Below, in pieces: positions 30,665-38,098 of a DNA stretch of 64,000 nucleotides. Location of the stretch: NCBI GenBank assembly GCA_025057015.1, contig JANWYG010000018.1:1-64000 (forward strand), read 5' to 3'. Positions within the stretch are counted from its first letter, which is position 1. Every line of letters begins with the position of its first letter. Under the pieces are notes generated by a model that was given only the letters and a program-made list of their open reading frames with translations, did not search any database and was not told the origin of the DNA. Both the position numbers and the translations under genes were made by a program. This stretch comes from Blastocatellia bacterium (GTDB taxonomy: Bacteria > Acidobacteriota > Blastocatellia > Chloracidobacteriales > JADJPF01).

Positions 30665-31240
30665 ATGAGCGAGCAGAATAGGAAAACAAACTCTATCAAC
30701 GCTCAAACAAGAAGGGATATTTCTGAGCAAACTGGAGCAGTAGAGGCGGAACAGACTTTGCCTTATCAGCAGTACCATGGTCATCACCAGTACGGTTACT
30801 ACGATCCGAGATCTAACGTTTCACCTCATGAGCCTGGGCAAAATCAGTATTTTCAGCAGCCGATGGATTTGGGCTTAAGGTTTGAGCCTCGTGTAGCTGC
30901 AGCGCTTTCATACGTGGCATTTATTATATCGGGCATAGCTTTTCTGTTGATAGAGCGTAAGAATCGATTTGTGCGCTTTCATGCTATGCAATCGGTAATT
31001 TTCAGTGCCGTCTGGATAGTCACTACTTTAGGTATAGGTTTTTTAATGATGACGGTTGGAATGGTTGCAGCTATTATAGGCATCAGCTTGGTGCTCCAAA
31101 TGATAGGTTTCGTAGTTAATTTGGTATCGGTAGGTTTTTTTGTTCTCTGGGTAGTGCTGATAGTGAAAGCCTATCAGGGTAATAAGTATAAGCTGCCGAT
31201 TATAGGTGATTGGGCTGAAAAACAGCTAGATAGGTTTTAA
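30665..31240 (+). CDS. DUF4870-like membrane protein with Gln/Tyr-rich N-terminus
   Basis: The 191-residue protein has a disordered N-terminal half (QQYHGHHQYGYYDP, many Gln/Tyr/His) and a DUF4870-like membrane domain (about 70-180). The pattern RVAAALSYVAFIISGIAF, ERKNRFVRFHAMQSVIFS and a final VLIVKAYQGNKYKLPIIG is typical. About three transmembrane helices are present. The stop overlaps the E1 start by 1 nt, placing it in the ubiquitin-like operon. Function unknown; a membrane partner is possible. Confidence 0.8.
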   Translation: MSEQNRKTNSINAQTRRDISEQTGAVEAEQTLPYQQYHGHHQYGYYDPRSNVSPHEPGQNQYFQQPMDLGLRFEPRVAAALSYVAFIISGIAFLLIERKNRFVRFHAMQSVIFSAVWIVTTLGIGFLMMTVGMVAAIIGISLVLQMIGFVVNLVSVGFFVLWVVLIVKAYQGNKYKLPIIGDWAEKQLDRF

Positions 31241-32430
31241 TGAAGTACCAGCAGGATGATGATCCGTTCGAGCGGCAAAGTAGAATAGAGTGGTGGCATC
31301 AGCAAGTGCTTCGTAACGCTAAGATATGCGTAGTAGGAGCAGGGGCGCTTGGAAACGAAGTATTGAAGAACTTGGCACTGCTGGGATTAGGACACATCCT
31401 GATACTGGATTTTGATGAGATTGTCGGCTCGAATTTGTCTAGGACAGTTCTTTTTCGACAGGAGGATATAGGTAAGAACAAGGCTGAGGTGGCTGCCTCT
31501 GCTATTAAGCAGATGATGCTTGAGCCTACAGCTAAGCTAGAGTACTTCAATGGAGACGTTGTTTGGGACCTGGGAGCTGGTATCTTCAGACGGTTCGACA
31601 TAGTAATAGGCTGTGTGGACAATGACGAGGCACGGCTTGCTATCAACCGTGCTTGCCGAAGTACGCAGCGCCCTTGGATAGACGGTGGTATACATGGGCT
31701 TGCTGGTAGCGTTACTGTCTATGCTCCTAAAGGGCCTTGCTTTGAGTGTAACGTAACTAGCGATCAGCTGGCGGATGCACTGTCCCGCTATGACAGCTGT
31801 GAAAATGTCAAGCGACGCTATATACAGCAGGAGCGCCTTCCAGCTGTGCAGGTTACGTCGGCAGTTATAGCGGCTTTGCAGGTACAGGAAGCTATTAAGT
31901 ACTTGCATGGGCAAGCGGTTACAGGTCGGAAGTATTACTTTAATGGTATGGTGAATGGCCTAACTAGCATAGAGCTGCAGGAAAATCCCAACTGCCTTGC
32001 CCACGGTGTTTATGGTGAAATCGTAGAGCTTGCCGCTTCAACTACAAGTACTTTAGCTGAGCTGATCGATGAGTTGAGGCGATATTTCAGCGGCGAGTTT
32101 ACTATTCTGCTAGGAAGGCGTTTTATAGTGGCTATTGCTTGTCGTAATTGTGGCGAGCGAGTTCGGTTAATGCGTCCGGCTCATATGATATACGATGATG
32201 AGTTGTACTGTGCTACCTGTAGACGCAATCCTGCTAGCAAGGTTGCTGAAACCTATGCTGATGCTGACTATATAGAGGTTTTCAGCTCTCTTTCTTCGGA
32301 CTCGTCGGCAGAGTATGCTCGAATGTCGCTTGGGCAACTTGGACTGCCGCCGTTGCATATATTTACTGCTTTTGATGCTAATAAGTCTCTCAGTTTCGAG
32401 CTAGCTGGTGATGTCAGCAGGGGTTTATGA
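31240..32430 (+). CDS. E1-like ThiF/MoeB-family adenylating enzyme with C-terminal zinc ribbon
   Basis: The 396-residue protein activates a C-terminal glycine by adenylation. ATP-site features are ICVVGAGALGNEVLKN (33-38 GAGALG), LDFDEI (Asp57), NLSRTVLF (Arg68), GKNKAE (Lys79/81) and VDNDEAR (Asp127). CFEC (167-170) is one zinc pair; Cys187 in YDSCENVKRR stands at the crossover position where E1 enzymes carry the catalytic Cys, before PAVQVTSAVIAALQVQEAIK. An added domain of about 150 residues holds CRNC (301-304) and CATC (324-327). It is co-translated with its neighbours and should charge the Ubl encoded at 33132. Confidence 0.9.
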   Translation: MKYQQDDDPFERQSRIEWWHQQVLRNAKICVVGAGALGNEVLKNLALLGLGHILILDFDEIVGSNLSRTVLFRQEDIGKNKAEVAASAIKQMMLEPTAKLEYFNGDVVWDLGAGIFRRFDIVIGCVDNDEARLAINRACRSTQRPWIDGGIHGLAGSVTVYAPKGPCFECNVTSDQLADALSRYDSCENVKRRYIQQERLPAVQVTSAVIAALQVQEAIKYLHGQAVTGRKYYFNGMVNGLTSIELQENPNCLAHGVYGEIVELAASTTSTLAELIDELRRYFSGEFTILLGRRFIVAIACRNCGERVRLMRPAHMIYDDELYCATCRRNPASKVAETYADADYIEVFSSLSSDSSAEYARMSLGQLGLPPLHIFTAFDANKSLSFELAGDVSRGL

Positions 32431-32789
32431 TGGTCATTGCTTTGCTGATGATAACTTATTTGGTGATCTGGGTAGTTCTTCTAGCAATAGCACAGGGCCG
32501 TTACCTTTACCTGCAGTCCAGAAACGGCTCTAAAGTGCTTGAAAAATACCCTGCCATTTTCAGGTCGGCTTTAGTGGCGTTGATCGAGTTAGGACGGCTC
32601 TACGAGCATGAGCGTCAGGGTAGTATAATAGAGCAACTGACCAGAGTCGAGCACTATGGACAGGGGCTACAGAGCGTCTTCAGAGTAAACTATGGTGGAT
32701 TACCACAGCGGTGTGAGGTCTGTCACCTTACTGATAAGTTTGATGTTGAGACCGGAATTTGTAGTCGATGCCTTCACACTACCCGATAG
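32427..32789 (+). CDS. Membrane-anchored CxxC-x12-CxxC mini-protein (copy 1)
   Basis: The 120-residue protein has one N-terminal transmembrane helix (about residues 3-22), a helical linker and a C-terminal zinc-binding module RCEVCHLTDKFDVETGICSR with CLH following (Cys96, 99, 112, 115; His100 and His117 nearby). It overlaps the E1 stop by 4 nt. A paralogue follows at 32832. The module recalls a treble-clef or zinc-ribbon, a size and place where an E3-like adaptor could be expected, but only one zinc site is visible, so it is not a canonical RING. Confidence 0.75.
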   Translation: MMVIALLMITYLVIWVVLLAIAQGRYLYLQSRNGSKVLEKYPAIFRSALVALIELGRLYEHERQGSIIEQLTRVEHYGQGLQSVFRVNYGGLPQRCEVCHLTDKFDVETGICSRCLHTTR

Positions 32790-32831
32790 AGAGTTCTTTT
32801 GATATGCTTAGAAAACAACTCTAATTTGCCT

Positions 32832-33116
32832 ATGGAATTCTTTTCTTTTCTGCTTTTTGTCCTCTTTTTTGGCTTTTTGGGTATGAATGTATGGGATATA
32901 TGGCAGGAAAGAGTTTTTGGAGATCCTCTTGATATGAAATTTATTCCTCGTGTTTCAAGATATATCAGGTCAAGCGAAGTCGAGCCGGTATTGATGCAGG
33001 GTACGTTTAGTATAAACTCAGTAGGCATTGCATTGCGTTGTGAGATATGTCATCAGTCCGACCTATTTGACGAAGCTACCGGCCTGTGCTCTAGATGTAA
33101 TCATGTTACGTCGTAG
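32832..33116 (+). CDS. Membrane-anchored CxxC-x12-CxxC mini-protein (copy 2)
   Basis: The 94-residue protein has a hydrophobic helix at residues 3-20 and ends in RCEICHQSDLFDEATGLCSR plus CNHVTS (Cys70, 73, 86, 89). This matches the copy 1 motif RCE(V/I)CHxxDxFDxxTGxCSRCxH almost residue by residue, while the linkers differ. ATG at 32832 was chosen; TTG at 32799, 7 nt after GAGAG, is an alternative adding 11 residues. It lies 15 nt before the Ubl gene. The two are clearly duplicated domains fixed in one operon. Confidence 0.72.
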   Translation: MEFFSFLLFVLFFGFLGMNVWDIWQERVFGDPLDMKFIPRVSRYIRSSEVEPVLMQGTFSINSVGIALRCEICHQSDLFDEATGLCSRCNHVTS

Positions 33117-33131: not shown

Positions 33132-33404
33132 ATGGCAGATATAGATGTTACTTTTAGAAATGAAAATAACGGCAAAGAAGTAGAAGTAACAGTTTCGGAT
33201 GATATGCCTGCCGATGCGATATTGCGCAACCTGGCTGAGGCTGGGCTGATACCGAATATACCGGGCACGGCTTTAGTTTACCGTGGAGTGCAGCTACGGC
33301 CTGGTCAGACGCTTGCTCAGATGGGCGTTCGCAATAACGATACGATAAGTATCTTCTTGAATACTCGCGGCGGAGGTCTCAAGTGGGTACACCAGAAGAA
33401 GTAA
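33132..33404 (+). CDS. Ubiquitin-like beta-grasp protein with GGG and 8-residue tail
   Basis: The 90-residue protein fits the ubiquitin fold: DIDVTFRNENNGKEVEVTVS (beta hairpin), ADAILRNLAEAGL (helix), LVYRGVQLRPGQTLAQMGVR and DTISIFLNTRGGG. Gly80-81-82 is followed by LKWVHQKK, so a protease would have to expose the diglycine before E1 charging. GGAGG precedes ATG 33132. The Gly codons include the GGAGG used as RBS of the E2 gene, which starts inside this gene. YukD-like Ubls of type VII secretion lack such E1/E2 neighbours, so a conjugation role is the better inference. Confidence 0.88.
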   Translation: MADIDVTFRNENNGKEVEVTVSDDMPADAILRNLAEAGLIPNIPGTALVYRGVQLRPGQTLAQMGVRNNDTISIFLNTRGGGLKWVHQKK

Positions 33405-33940
33405 GACGGGCAAGGTTAGAGGCCGACTATGAGGAGATGAAGTCCATACGTGGTACTGTAATAAGCTGGCAGGCTATAGGTGTGCCGCCCAGCGAGTACA
33501 TTGTGACATTTAACGTAAGAAGTTATATAAGCGCTGTACAGCAGCGTAATCAGCATCGTGTTAGAATAATACTTTCCCCGAACCACCCTTTTGAAAAGCC
33601 ACTGGTGATGATGCATGAAATGTCGCCTATATTTCATCCTCACGTGTGGCCGGATGGTAAGATCTGTGTAGGAAATTGGGATTATCGTGAAGGACTGGGC
33701 TCATTTGTAGTTAAGTTGGCCAGGATCTTTCAATACGATCCGACTCTTATTGATCCTTACTCTGTAGCCAACTATAACGCTGCAGATTGGTTCTATGCGA
33801 ACCCTACGCTTTTTCCTACCGATAGACAACCTTTGCCTGTACCTGGTAACAAAGAGGTAGGCGGTCAGACTTTTAGAATCAAATCTCCAGTGTCGTCTAG
33901 TACACAACAGAAACCAAAGTTTGTAATAAAGCAGAAATGA
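33383..33940 (+). CDS. E2-like ubiquitin-conjugating (UBC-fold) protein
   Basis: The 185-residue protein has the UBC layout: an N-terminal helix (EEVRRARLEADYEEMKSI), strands ending RVRIILSPNHPFEKPLVMM (the usual YPxxxP place) and then SPIFHPHVWPDGKICVGNWD. Cys95 aligns with the catalytic Cys of E2 enzymes, and HPH (85-87) replaces the eukaryotic HPN, so the Asn is His. After Cys95 the family pattern ARIFQYDPTLIDPYSVANYN continues. GTG at 33383 stands 6 nt after GGAGG and overlaps the Ubl gene by 22 nt. It ends with a Ser/Gln/Lys-rich tail and overlaps rtcB by 4 nt. Confidence 0.88.
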   Translation: MGTPEEVRRARLEADYEEMKSIRGTVISWQAIGVPPSEYIVTFNVRSYISAVQQRNQHRVRIILSPNHPFEKPLVMMHEMSPIFHPHVWPDGKICVGNWDYREGLGSFVVKLARIFQYDPTLIDPYSVANYNAADWFYANPTLFPTDRQPLPVPGNKEVGGQTFRIKSPVSSSTQQKPKFVIKQK

Positions 33941-35397
33941 AAGAAGTGTTTAAAGGGCCTCTTGAGCGGGTAACGGACTATTGCTGGCGGATACCAAAAT
34001 CCTATAAACCTGGTATGCGCGTTGACGGGCTTATATATGCTAGTAGTAAGCAAATTCGAACAATTAGAGAAGATCTAGCGCCTGAACAAGTGGCAAACGT
34101 CGCCTTTTTACCAGGTATTCAGTACGCAAGCATTGCCATGCCGGACATACACTGGGGCTATGGGTTTTCAATAGGTGGTGTTTGCGCAACAGATCCAGAA
34201 GAAGATGGCGTAATTTGCCCTGGAGGAATAGGCTACGATATAAACTGCGGCGTGCGTTTAGTCGCAACGAATCTGCACTTGGAGGAAGTGCGACCAGTTC
34301 TGCGCCAGCTTGTAGAGGAACTTTTCAAAGAAATTCCTACTGGTGTTGGACGTTCTGGCAGGTACTACTTTGATAAGAAGGAACTGCGGCACTTAATGAG
34401 AGATGGTGTCAGCTACCTTTTCAAGAAGGGGCTTGCTACTCAGCAAGACATAGATCATACGGAAGAGAATGGTAAGCTCGTTTCTGCTGATCCAGACGCA
34501 GTAAGTGACCGTGCGCTTGAACGCGGCGCCGAGCAGTGCGGGACGCTGGGTTCTGGCAACCATTTTTTAGAAGTTCAGGTAGTTGATGAGGTAGTGGACG
34601 AGGCTGTGGCACTTGTCATGGGTATAGAAGTCGGACAAGTAGTAGTGATGATCCACTCTGGTTCGCGGGGTCTTGGCTATCAAGTTTGTGAGGATGCTCT
34701 CAAATCACTTAGAAAAGCTACAGAAAAATATTCTATACAGCTACCTGATAAGCAGCTTGCTTGTGCACCTATTAAAAGCAGCGAAGGACAGCAATATCTG
34801 GCGGCGATGTCTGCTGCTGCAAACTTTGCTTGGTGTAACCGGCAACTTTTGATGTGGCAAACTCGGGAAGTGTTTGAAAGATTTTTTGGTCGTTCCTGGC
34901 AACAATTGGGAATGCGGCTGGTTTATGACGTAGCACATAACATAGCTAAGTTCGAGCAGCACTCTGTAAACAACACAGTTAAGACGGTCTGCGTTCATCG
35001 AAAAGGTGCTACGAGAGCTTTTCCCGCAGGGCACGCTGATGTGCCTTCCTCTTATCGCTCGATCGGCCAGCCAGTCATTATCCCCGGTGATATGGGTAGG
35101 TCTAGCTGGCTTTTAGTGGGTACGGAAGGTAGCCTACAAAAGACTTTTGGTACAACTTGTCACGGGGCCGGACGCGTTCTTAGTCGTTCTGCGGCAGTAA
35201 AACAGGCTGAAGGACATCATATAAGCAAGGAGTTAGAAGATAGAGGAGTTATTGCTAGGGCACGTAGTTGGAAGGGTTTAGCAGAAGAAATGCCCGCTGC
35301 TTACAAGGATGTCGATGAGGTGGTCGATGTCGTAGAGCGAGCTGGTATTACTCGCAAAGTGGCTAGAATGCGTCCTATTGGGGTAATCAAGGGTTGA
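33937..35397 (+). CDS. rtcB: RNA-splicing ligase RtcB
   Basis: The 486-residue ligase joins 2',3'-cyclic-phosphate or 3'-phosphate RNA ends to 5'-OH ends using GTP and Mn. Metal and GMP-site motifs are DINCGVR (Cys104), GTLGSGNHFLEVQ, MIHSGSRGLGYQ, YDVAHNIAKFE, HRKGATRAFPAG and TCHGAGRVLSRS with the His that accepts GMP. Length is normal for the family. It overlaps the E2 gene (ATGA) and is the last gene of the operon. No archease or rtcA/rtcR gene lies beside it, so its regulation differs from the classic rtc operon. Confidence 0.95.
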   Translation: MKEVFKGPLERVTDYCWRIPKSYKPGMRVDGLIYASSKQIRTIREDLAPEQVANVAFLPGIQYASIAMPDIHWGYGFSIGGVCATDPEEDGVICPGGIGYDINCGVRLVATNLHLEEVRPVLRQLVEELFKEIPTGVGRSGRYYFDKKELRHLMRDGVSYLFKKGLATQQDIDHTEENGKLVSADPDAVSDRALERGAEQCGTLGSGNHFLEVQVVDEVVDEAVALVMGIEVGQVVVMIHSGSRGLGYQVCEDALKSLRKATEKYSIQLPDKQLACAPIKSSEGQQYLAAMSAAANFAWCNRQLLMWQTREVFERFFGRSWQQLGMRLVYDVAHNIAKFEQHSVNNTVKTVCVHRKGATRAFPAGHADVPSSYRSIGQPVIIPGDMGRSSWLLVGTEGSLQKTFGTTCHGAGRVLSRSAAVKQAEGHHISKELEDRGVIARARSWKGLAEEMPAAYKDVDEVVDVVERAGITRKVARMRPIGVIKG

Positions 35398-37881: not shown

Positions 37882-38082
37882 CTATCTATCAAACTTTAGC
37901 TCTTCACGTAGGAAATAGCCTCTGCACCAGCCACAGATTCCTACAAACATCTCTATTTCAGCTTTTGGGACGAGCCTTTCGCACTCAGGACACTTCTCGT
38001 AATAACGTTCATAGCCGGGCTCGTTCTCGTATTGCTTTAGCGCATCTTCTAGAAACTTTTTTAGCTTGTCGTTGTTTTTCAT
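37882..38082 (-). CDS. Small zinc-ribbon protein
   Basis: The 66-residue protein (from ATG 38082; AAGGATGA upstream looks like its RBS, so the longer ATG at 38091 is less likely) has a charged helix and KCPECERL...ICGWCRGY, two CxxC knuckles 17 residues apart that should bind one zinc. It lies 16 nt after the transglycosylase-like gene on the same strand. Role unknown. Confidence 0.65.
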   Translation of the reverse strand: MKNNDKLKKFLEDALKQYENEPGYERYYEKCPECERLVPKAEIEMFVGICGWCRGYFLREELKFDR

Positions 38083-38098
38083 AGGCTTCATCCTTGCG

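Follow-up and report, generated by a model that had tools for sequence, protein, structure and literature searches.

Ubiquitin-like conjugation is already known in bacteria, although its targets and E3-type partners for the most part are not, and the locus described here strictly links such a system with a membrane zinc protein, referred to below as Z. Among the closest described systems, the ubiquitin operon of Caldiarchaeum subterraneum, which encodes ubiquitin, E1, E2, a small RING protein and Rpn11 (PMC5654768), resembles this locus in its single ubiquitin-like modifier (Ubl) with a tail after the GG, its E1, E2 and JAMM protease, and its small zinc protein. However, the Caldiarchaeum zinc protein is a two-zinc RING-H2 protein shown to be an E3 (PMC5654768), whereas Z is membrane-anchored and has one predicted zinc site. 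The Bil and Bub systems are likewise bacterial E1/E2/Ubl/JAB cascades, but their operons belong to immune pathways, known or putative, and BilA has two Ubl domains (PMC11354881, PMC13373217); here, a single ubiquitin-like Ubl is conserved throughout an order, and E2 and JAB are unlinked in some of its members. The Synechocystis sll6052-type Ubl operon (row 6e, PMC1779556) also carries a potential treble-clef zinc protein, proposed to recognize targets, yet this has a C-x3-C-x(35-38)-H-x2-C signature and is accompanied by an inactive E2 (PMC1779556). Operons of other Acidobacteriota that contain Prok-RING_1 (PF14446) proteins (loci L162, L163, L164 and L166), likely to have been described elsewhere, are similar to this system in the type of E1, in the presence of E2 and JAB, and in encoding a membrane-anchored zinc protein within the operon. 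They differ in that the finger is of the binuclear RING/PHD type and fused to TM2 or VWA, the Ubl is YukD-type where tested (L164) and not SUMO/ubiquitin-type, and the divergent E2 has an HPN motif in place of the HPH found here. A literature search limited to open papers found no relevant paper on Chloracidobacterium and ubiquitin.

The window (the whole stretch of 64,000 nucleotides that was analysed) contains the following features at this locus.

30665..31240 (+), DUF4870 membrane protein (PF09685, E=1.9e-5), upstream of E1 and overlapping it
31240..32430 (+), E1-like activating enzyme with a ThiF/UBA3-like adenylation domain, C-terminal CxxC..CxxC and UFD-like tail (PF00899, E=8.2e-53)
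32427..32789 (+), Z1, membrane-anchored zinc protein of 120 aa, an extra copy seen only in this genome
32673..32786 (+), zinc module of Z1, matching a 37-sequence zinc-domain profile (E=2.4e-17)
32832..33116 (+), Z2, conserved membrane-anchored zinc protein with orthologues in 13/13 other members of the order
33000..33113 (+), zinc module of Z2, C-x2-C-H-x11-C-x2-C (37-sequence domain profile, E=1.1e-19)
33132..33404 (+), Ubl, a SUMO/ubiquitin/YukD-like beta-grasp protein with FLNTRGG and a variable tail (Rad60-SLD, 5.7e-7)
33383..33940 (+), E2-like conjugating enzyme with an HPH motif and catalytic Cys (FHPHVWPDGKICVG; UQ_con, 5e-4)
33937..35397 (+), RtcB, the next gene after E2 (PF01139, E=5.8e-174; ATGA overlap)

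The overlapping junctions (DUF4870/E1 TAATG, E1/Z1 ATGA, Ubl/E2, and E2/RtcB ATGA) identify the locus as an operon. RtcB and DUF4870 were considered as members of the system and rejected, RtcB because it does not lie beside E2 in the loci of relatives and DUF4870 because it has no match there. On the minus strand of the window, at 37882-38091, a 69-aa protein carries a zinc-like C-x2-C-x16-C-x2-C motif that differs from, and is unrelated to, that of Z.

The locus encodes the E1, Ubl and E2 of a complete bacterial ubiquitin-like conjugation cascade, the JAB protease being encoded elsewhere in the genome (G000:C23:191956, outside the window), so that every component expected of a conjugation system is present: an E1 with an invariant cysteine, a di-glycine beta-grasp Ubl, an E2 with a catalytic cysteine and a JAB in the same genome. 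The nearest PDB relatives of the E1 profile are UBA7, SAE2 and UBA1, and Foldseek matched E1 to UBA3 over its full length, including the UFD region (E=8.6e-19); the invariant cysteine in the orthologue alignment is C187. The Ubl, which matches the ubiquitin family as well as Rad60-SLD, gives an alignment that is gap-free and conserved exactly to FLNTRGG and not beyond. Its RGG is invariant and is followed by a tail that ranges from 0 to about 21 residues, three orthologues stopping at RGG, as expected for a modifier that is trimmed to the di-glycine. A Ubl-profile search of genome contigs gave matches only in this order, a restriction that is due to the close range of the search patterns. The UQ_con match of E2 lies below the Pfam cut-off, but the catalytic cysteine is present; this residue and the HPH that replaces HPN are invariant among the E2 orthologues, which are found in all members of the order and are 65-76% identical. 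A defence identity (PADLOC, Bil or Bub) was considered and discarded, the only matches being partial ThiF-domain hits to E1-E2 fusion models and, in one case, to BilD; none of the PADLOC defence models was matched by Ubl or Z.

The preliminary description of this DNA had reported, between E1 and Ubl, two adjacent genes that each encode one transmembrane helix and a C-terminal cysteine motif, and both ORFs are indeed present. A single helix is predicted at residues 3-21 of Z1 and of Z2 alike; Z1 ends in RCEVCHLTDKFDVETGICSRCLHTTR and Z2 in RCEICHQSDLFDEATGLCSRCNHVTS, the latter at position 33116. We have revised the start of Z2 from TTG 32799 to ATG 32832 (94 aa), because all orthologues begin MDF or MEG. 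A search of the genome in all six frames matched the two C-terminal modules to each other (E=2.5e-9) and, judged from their sequences, they are alike beyond chance. Selection on the module, also proposed in that description, was borne out by the 24-codon motif, in which synonymous differences exceed non-synonymous ones: between Z1 and Z2 the differences amount to 0.89 of synonymous and 0.29 of non-synonymous sites, and the means over 11 Z sequences are 0.92 and 0.25, indicating purifying selection. In the orthologue alignment, strong conservation of Z is confined to the helix and the module, and from the four invariant cysteines of the module we infer that it binds zinc. The AF2 model of Z2 (mean pLDDT 73.9, pTM 0.31) has a helix at residues 2-29; its confident parts are limited to this helix and the zinc loop, the mean pLDDT of the module being about 83-90 over the last ten-residue blocks. 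An average of 0.31 K/R precedes the helix of Z and 3.23 follow it, the zinc side being the richer in 12/13 cases. Z2 is thus predicted to have its N-terminus outside and its C-terminus inside, and its single-zinc module would therefore face the cytoplasm.

Conservation was assessed in an order sample of 14 genomes, comprising Chloracidobacterium and other Blastocatellia (this genome, G000, and its relatives G001-G013). The placement of Z between E1 and Ubl proved to be real and conserved, the gene order E1-Z-Ubl being kept in 14/14 genomes, although the G012 contig stops short of E1. E2 and JAB were each detected in 14/14, so that a full cascade of E1, ubiquitin-like tag, E2 and JAB is common to all members of this bacterial order that were examined. 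JAB lies directly 3' of E2 in G002, G003 and G004. E2 is far from the E1-Z-Ubl trio in Chloracidobacterium and relatives, and in Chloracidobacterium JAB has also been relocated away from it, yet Z still lies between E1 and Ubl. Because the order of the trio is conserved even where E2 and JAB lie elsewhere, we regard Z as a core part of the conjugation system. The 'twin' genes of the preliminary description hold for this genome, whereas each of the 13 relatives has a single Z at the same place and Z1 is without a counterpart between E1 and Z. As Z stands between E1 and Ubl everywhere and Z1 is absent from relatives, the assignment of Z2 as the core membrane component of the system is well supported, and Z1 is a local extra copy, which would be of recent origin.

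The zinc module, of about 38 residues, is not confined to Z, and there are from 2 to more than 40 copies of it per genome in the order. When Z2 was used as the query, matches with E<=1 numbered 48 in G004, 43 in G005, 39 in G002, 17 in G003, 16 in G012 and 13 in G001, with 4 in this genome and only 2 in the majority of Chloracidobacterium genomes; of the two copies that each of Chloracidobacterium G006-G008 has, one is Z. With some variation, the copies share the pattern F-x-I-x(7)-[PA]-x-RCE[IV]CHQ-x-D-x-FD-x(2)-TG-x-C-x-RC, in which no lysine is conserved. In nearly all of the copies other than Z the module is N-terminal, its first cysteine mostly at residue 14-19, on membrane proteins that are often encoded in tandem gene arrays. 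A helix was predicted in 63/66 distinct module proteins, a count that is inflated by tandem paralogues. The N-terminal copies have 2.60 K/R before the helix and 1.22 after it (35/43 unequal cases), and the module is therefore predicted to be cytoplasmic in both arrangements. The remainder of these proteins is mostly unannotated and otherwise unrelated, two having ankyrin repeats, one TPR, and others multiple helices. L046, L049, L050, L051 and L057, from G004 and G005, are arrays of 3-5 tandem genes encoding an N-terminal module and diverged membrane helices, and represent a lineage-specific expansion. Searching for the motif in other E1/Ubl operons, as had been suggested, gave a divided answer: the E1-Z-Ubl arrangement was found in all 14 genomes, but most copies of the module are in other membrane-protein genes, so that by count the motif occurs mainly in unrelated operons, the outcome named in the preliminary description as one that would refute its proposal. 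In a phylum sample of 396 genomes, each of the 7 members of the order that it contains carried the module, and there was one further, weak match in G321 (E=1.1e-6; NCPVCHRSDKIDSLSNRCLRC ahead of a helix), a genome that lacks a matching E2. Scoring in this search was restricted to the top candidates from each genome, and its copy counts are therefore lower bounds. A close E2 was present in the same 7 genomes and an E2 also in four divergent ones, and E1 in the same 7 and seven more. Within the order, module and E2 are each found in 14/14 genomes, a co-distribution that is suggestive only, since it comes from one clade and is not statistically independent. Given that copies occur only in genomes with the Ubl system, bar one weak relative, and that Z is one of two in G006-G008, we regard this as a lineage-wide zinc module with one stable Ubl-system member, and the proteins that bear it across the lineage as an immediate source of candidates for partners or clients.

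An E3-like or docking role for Z, as first suggested, is plausible but unproven. The view that Z is a reduced RING or treble-clef E3 that directly activates discharge of E2~Ubl would fit the membrane proteins with Prok-RING_1 that stand in the place of Z in related systems, but we consider it highly improbable: there are four invariant cysteines only, and not the eight ligands of a cross-brace. This upholds the earlier conclusion that a protein with a single zinc site is not a RING, and excludes the canonical RING mechanism. Comparison of the module with the Prok-RING_1 profile gave no detectable relation (hhalign probability 5.5%), Z matched none of the Pfam RING families, and no Pfam family scored above its cut-off for the module. 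A Foldseek search returned no significant match, the best being chains of ribosome structures (E>5), and the relatives of the module among solved structures were only chance-level zinc fingers. The spacing of the module resembles the uS14-like C-x2-C-x12-C-x2-C, a likeness and no more. CxxCH is also the form of a c-type haem attachment site, and weak Cytochrome_C7 matches (best 0.0095) were obtained; however, haem c is attached outside the cytoplasm, the module is predicted to be cytoplasmic at either terminus, and a second invariant motif, CxRC, follows CxxCH, making haem attachment barely conceivable.

The best explanation of the whole is, in our tentative judgement, which falls a little short of an even chance, that Z2 is a membrane-anchored adaptor bringing Ubl conjugation to the inner membrane. 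Z2 would be the conserved membrane component of the E1/Ubl/E2/JAB cascade, its cytoplasmic module serving as an inner-membrane docking point for E1, E2~Ubl or Ubl, in an E3-like or scaffold role that would steer Ubl onto membrane proteins, and N-terminal copies of the module on other membrane proteins might mark proteins that partner with this machinery or are its clients; we infer both the docking function and the client role. This is consistent with the unbroken E1-Z-Ubl order despite the displaced E2 and JAB of Chloracidobacterium, the predicted cytoplasmic position of the module at either terminus and the helix that nearly always accompanies it, the coincident distributions of module and E2 in the order and in the phylum sample, the membrane-anchored Prok-RING_1 proteins of related acidobacterial YukD-Ubl/E1/JAB/E2 operons, the full-length likeness of E1 to UBA3 and the conservation of Ubl exactly to RGG. 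If the link is real, it would represent a bacterial ubiquitin-like pathway directed at membrane proteins, testable in cultivated Chloracidobacterium. Against an adaptor stand the small size of the module, with one zinc site and no detectable RING relation, the location of most copies in operons without Ubl genes, a co-distribution that is drawn from one clade, and the weak relative of the module in G321, which lacks a matching E2. Alternatively, the module could be a generic zinc domain of the membrane proteins of this order, serving stability, redox or metal sensing, or oligomerization, and incidental to the role of Z in the Ubl operon. Membrane proteins frequently carry zinc ribbons at a terminus, most copies here lie in tandem arrays outside Ubl operons, and the weak relative in G321 is again in keeping with this view. 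We nevertheless consider a generic domain rather unlikely, as no part of Z other than the helix and the module is strongly conserved, and every genome has one Z between E1 and Ubl, including those with only two copies. The module might instead be a substrate tag and not part of a ligase, Z2 being the founding or obligate Ubl acceptor and N-terminal copies marking further targets. Most non-Z copies are at the extreme N-terminus of host proteins that are otherwise unrelated, and HPH instead of HPN is specific to the eukaryotic UBE2W family (PMC4630614), members of which attach ubiquitin to protein N-termini (PMC9527308), so that with an HPH-type E2 the attachment could perhaps be to N-terminal amines. 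This would be inapplicable to Z itself, the module of which is C-terminal and the N-terminus outside; moreover, the module lacks a conserved lysine, and HPH also occurs in the E2 of the distant system at locus L133, where the module was not detected, and we judge a substrate tag unlikely. Slightly more doubtful still is the broadest proposal, that the portable module is a docking code on Z and up to about 40 membrane proteins, which would be recruited to or modified by the HPH-type E2, possibly at N-terminal amines, in a Ubl system dedicated to the inner membrane.

Returning to the adaptor proposed for Z2, the divergent acidobacterial operons suggest by analogy that cascades of this type may repeatedly be partnered by a zinc protein bound to the membrane, since those operons carry membrane Prok-RING_1 proteins. 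In L163 (9896-10480) and L164 (10225-10746), Pfam matches place a Prok-RING_1 finger fused to TM2 in an E1/E2 neighbourhood, and the same combination occurs in L166, as judged by sequence; L162 (1535-3130) has a VWA-helix-Prok-RING_1 protein, the RING match of which (27.7 bits) is just below the Pfam cut-off, and the L165 protein, which matches Prok-RING_1 weakly, is soluble. A YukD-like Ubl and JAB were seen in several E1/E2 operons of other Acidobacteriota with membrane-anchored Prok-RING_1 proteins. L133 (5265-8529, G219) is an E1-Ubl-E2-JAB cluster followed, on the opposite strand, by a gene whose product begins with a helix and is rich in Cys in its C-terminal part.
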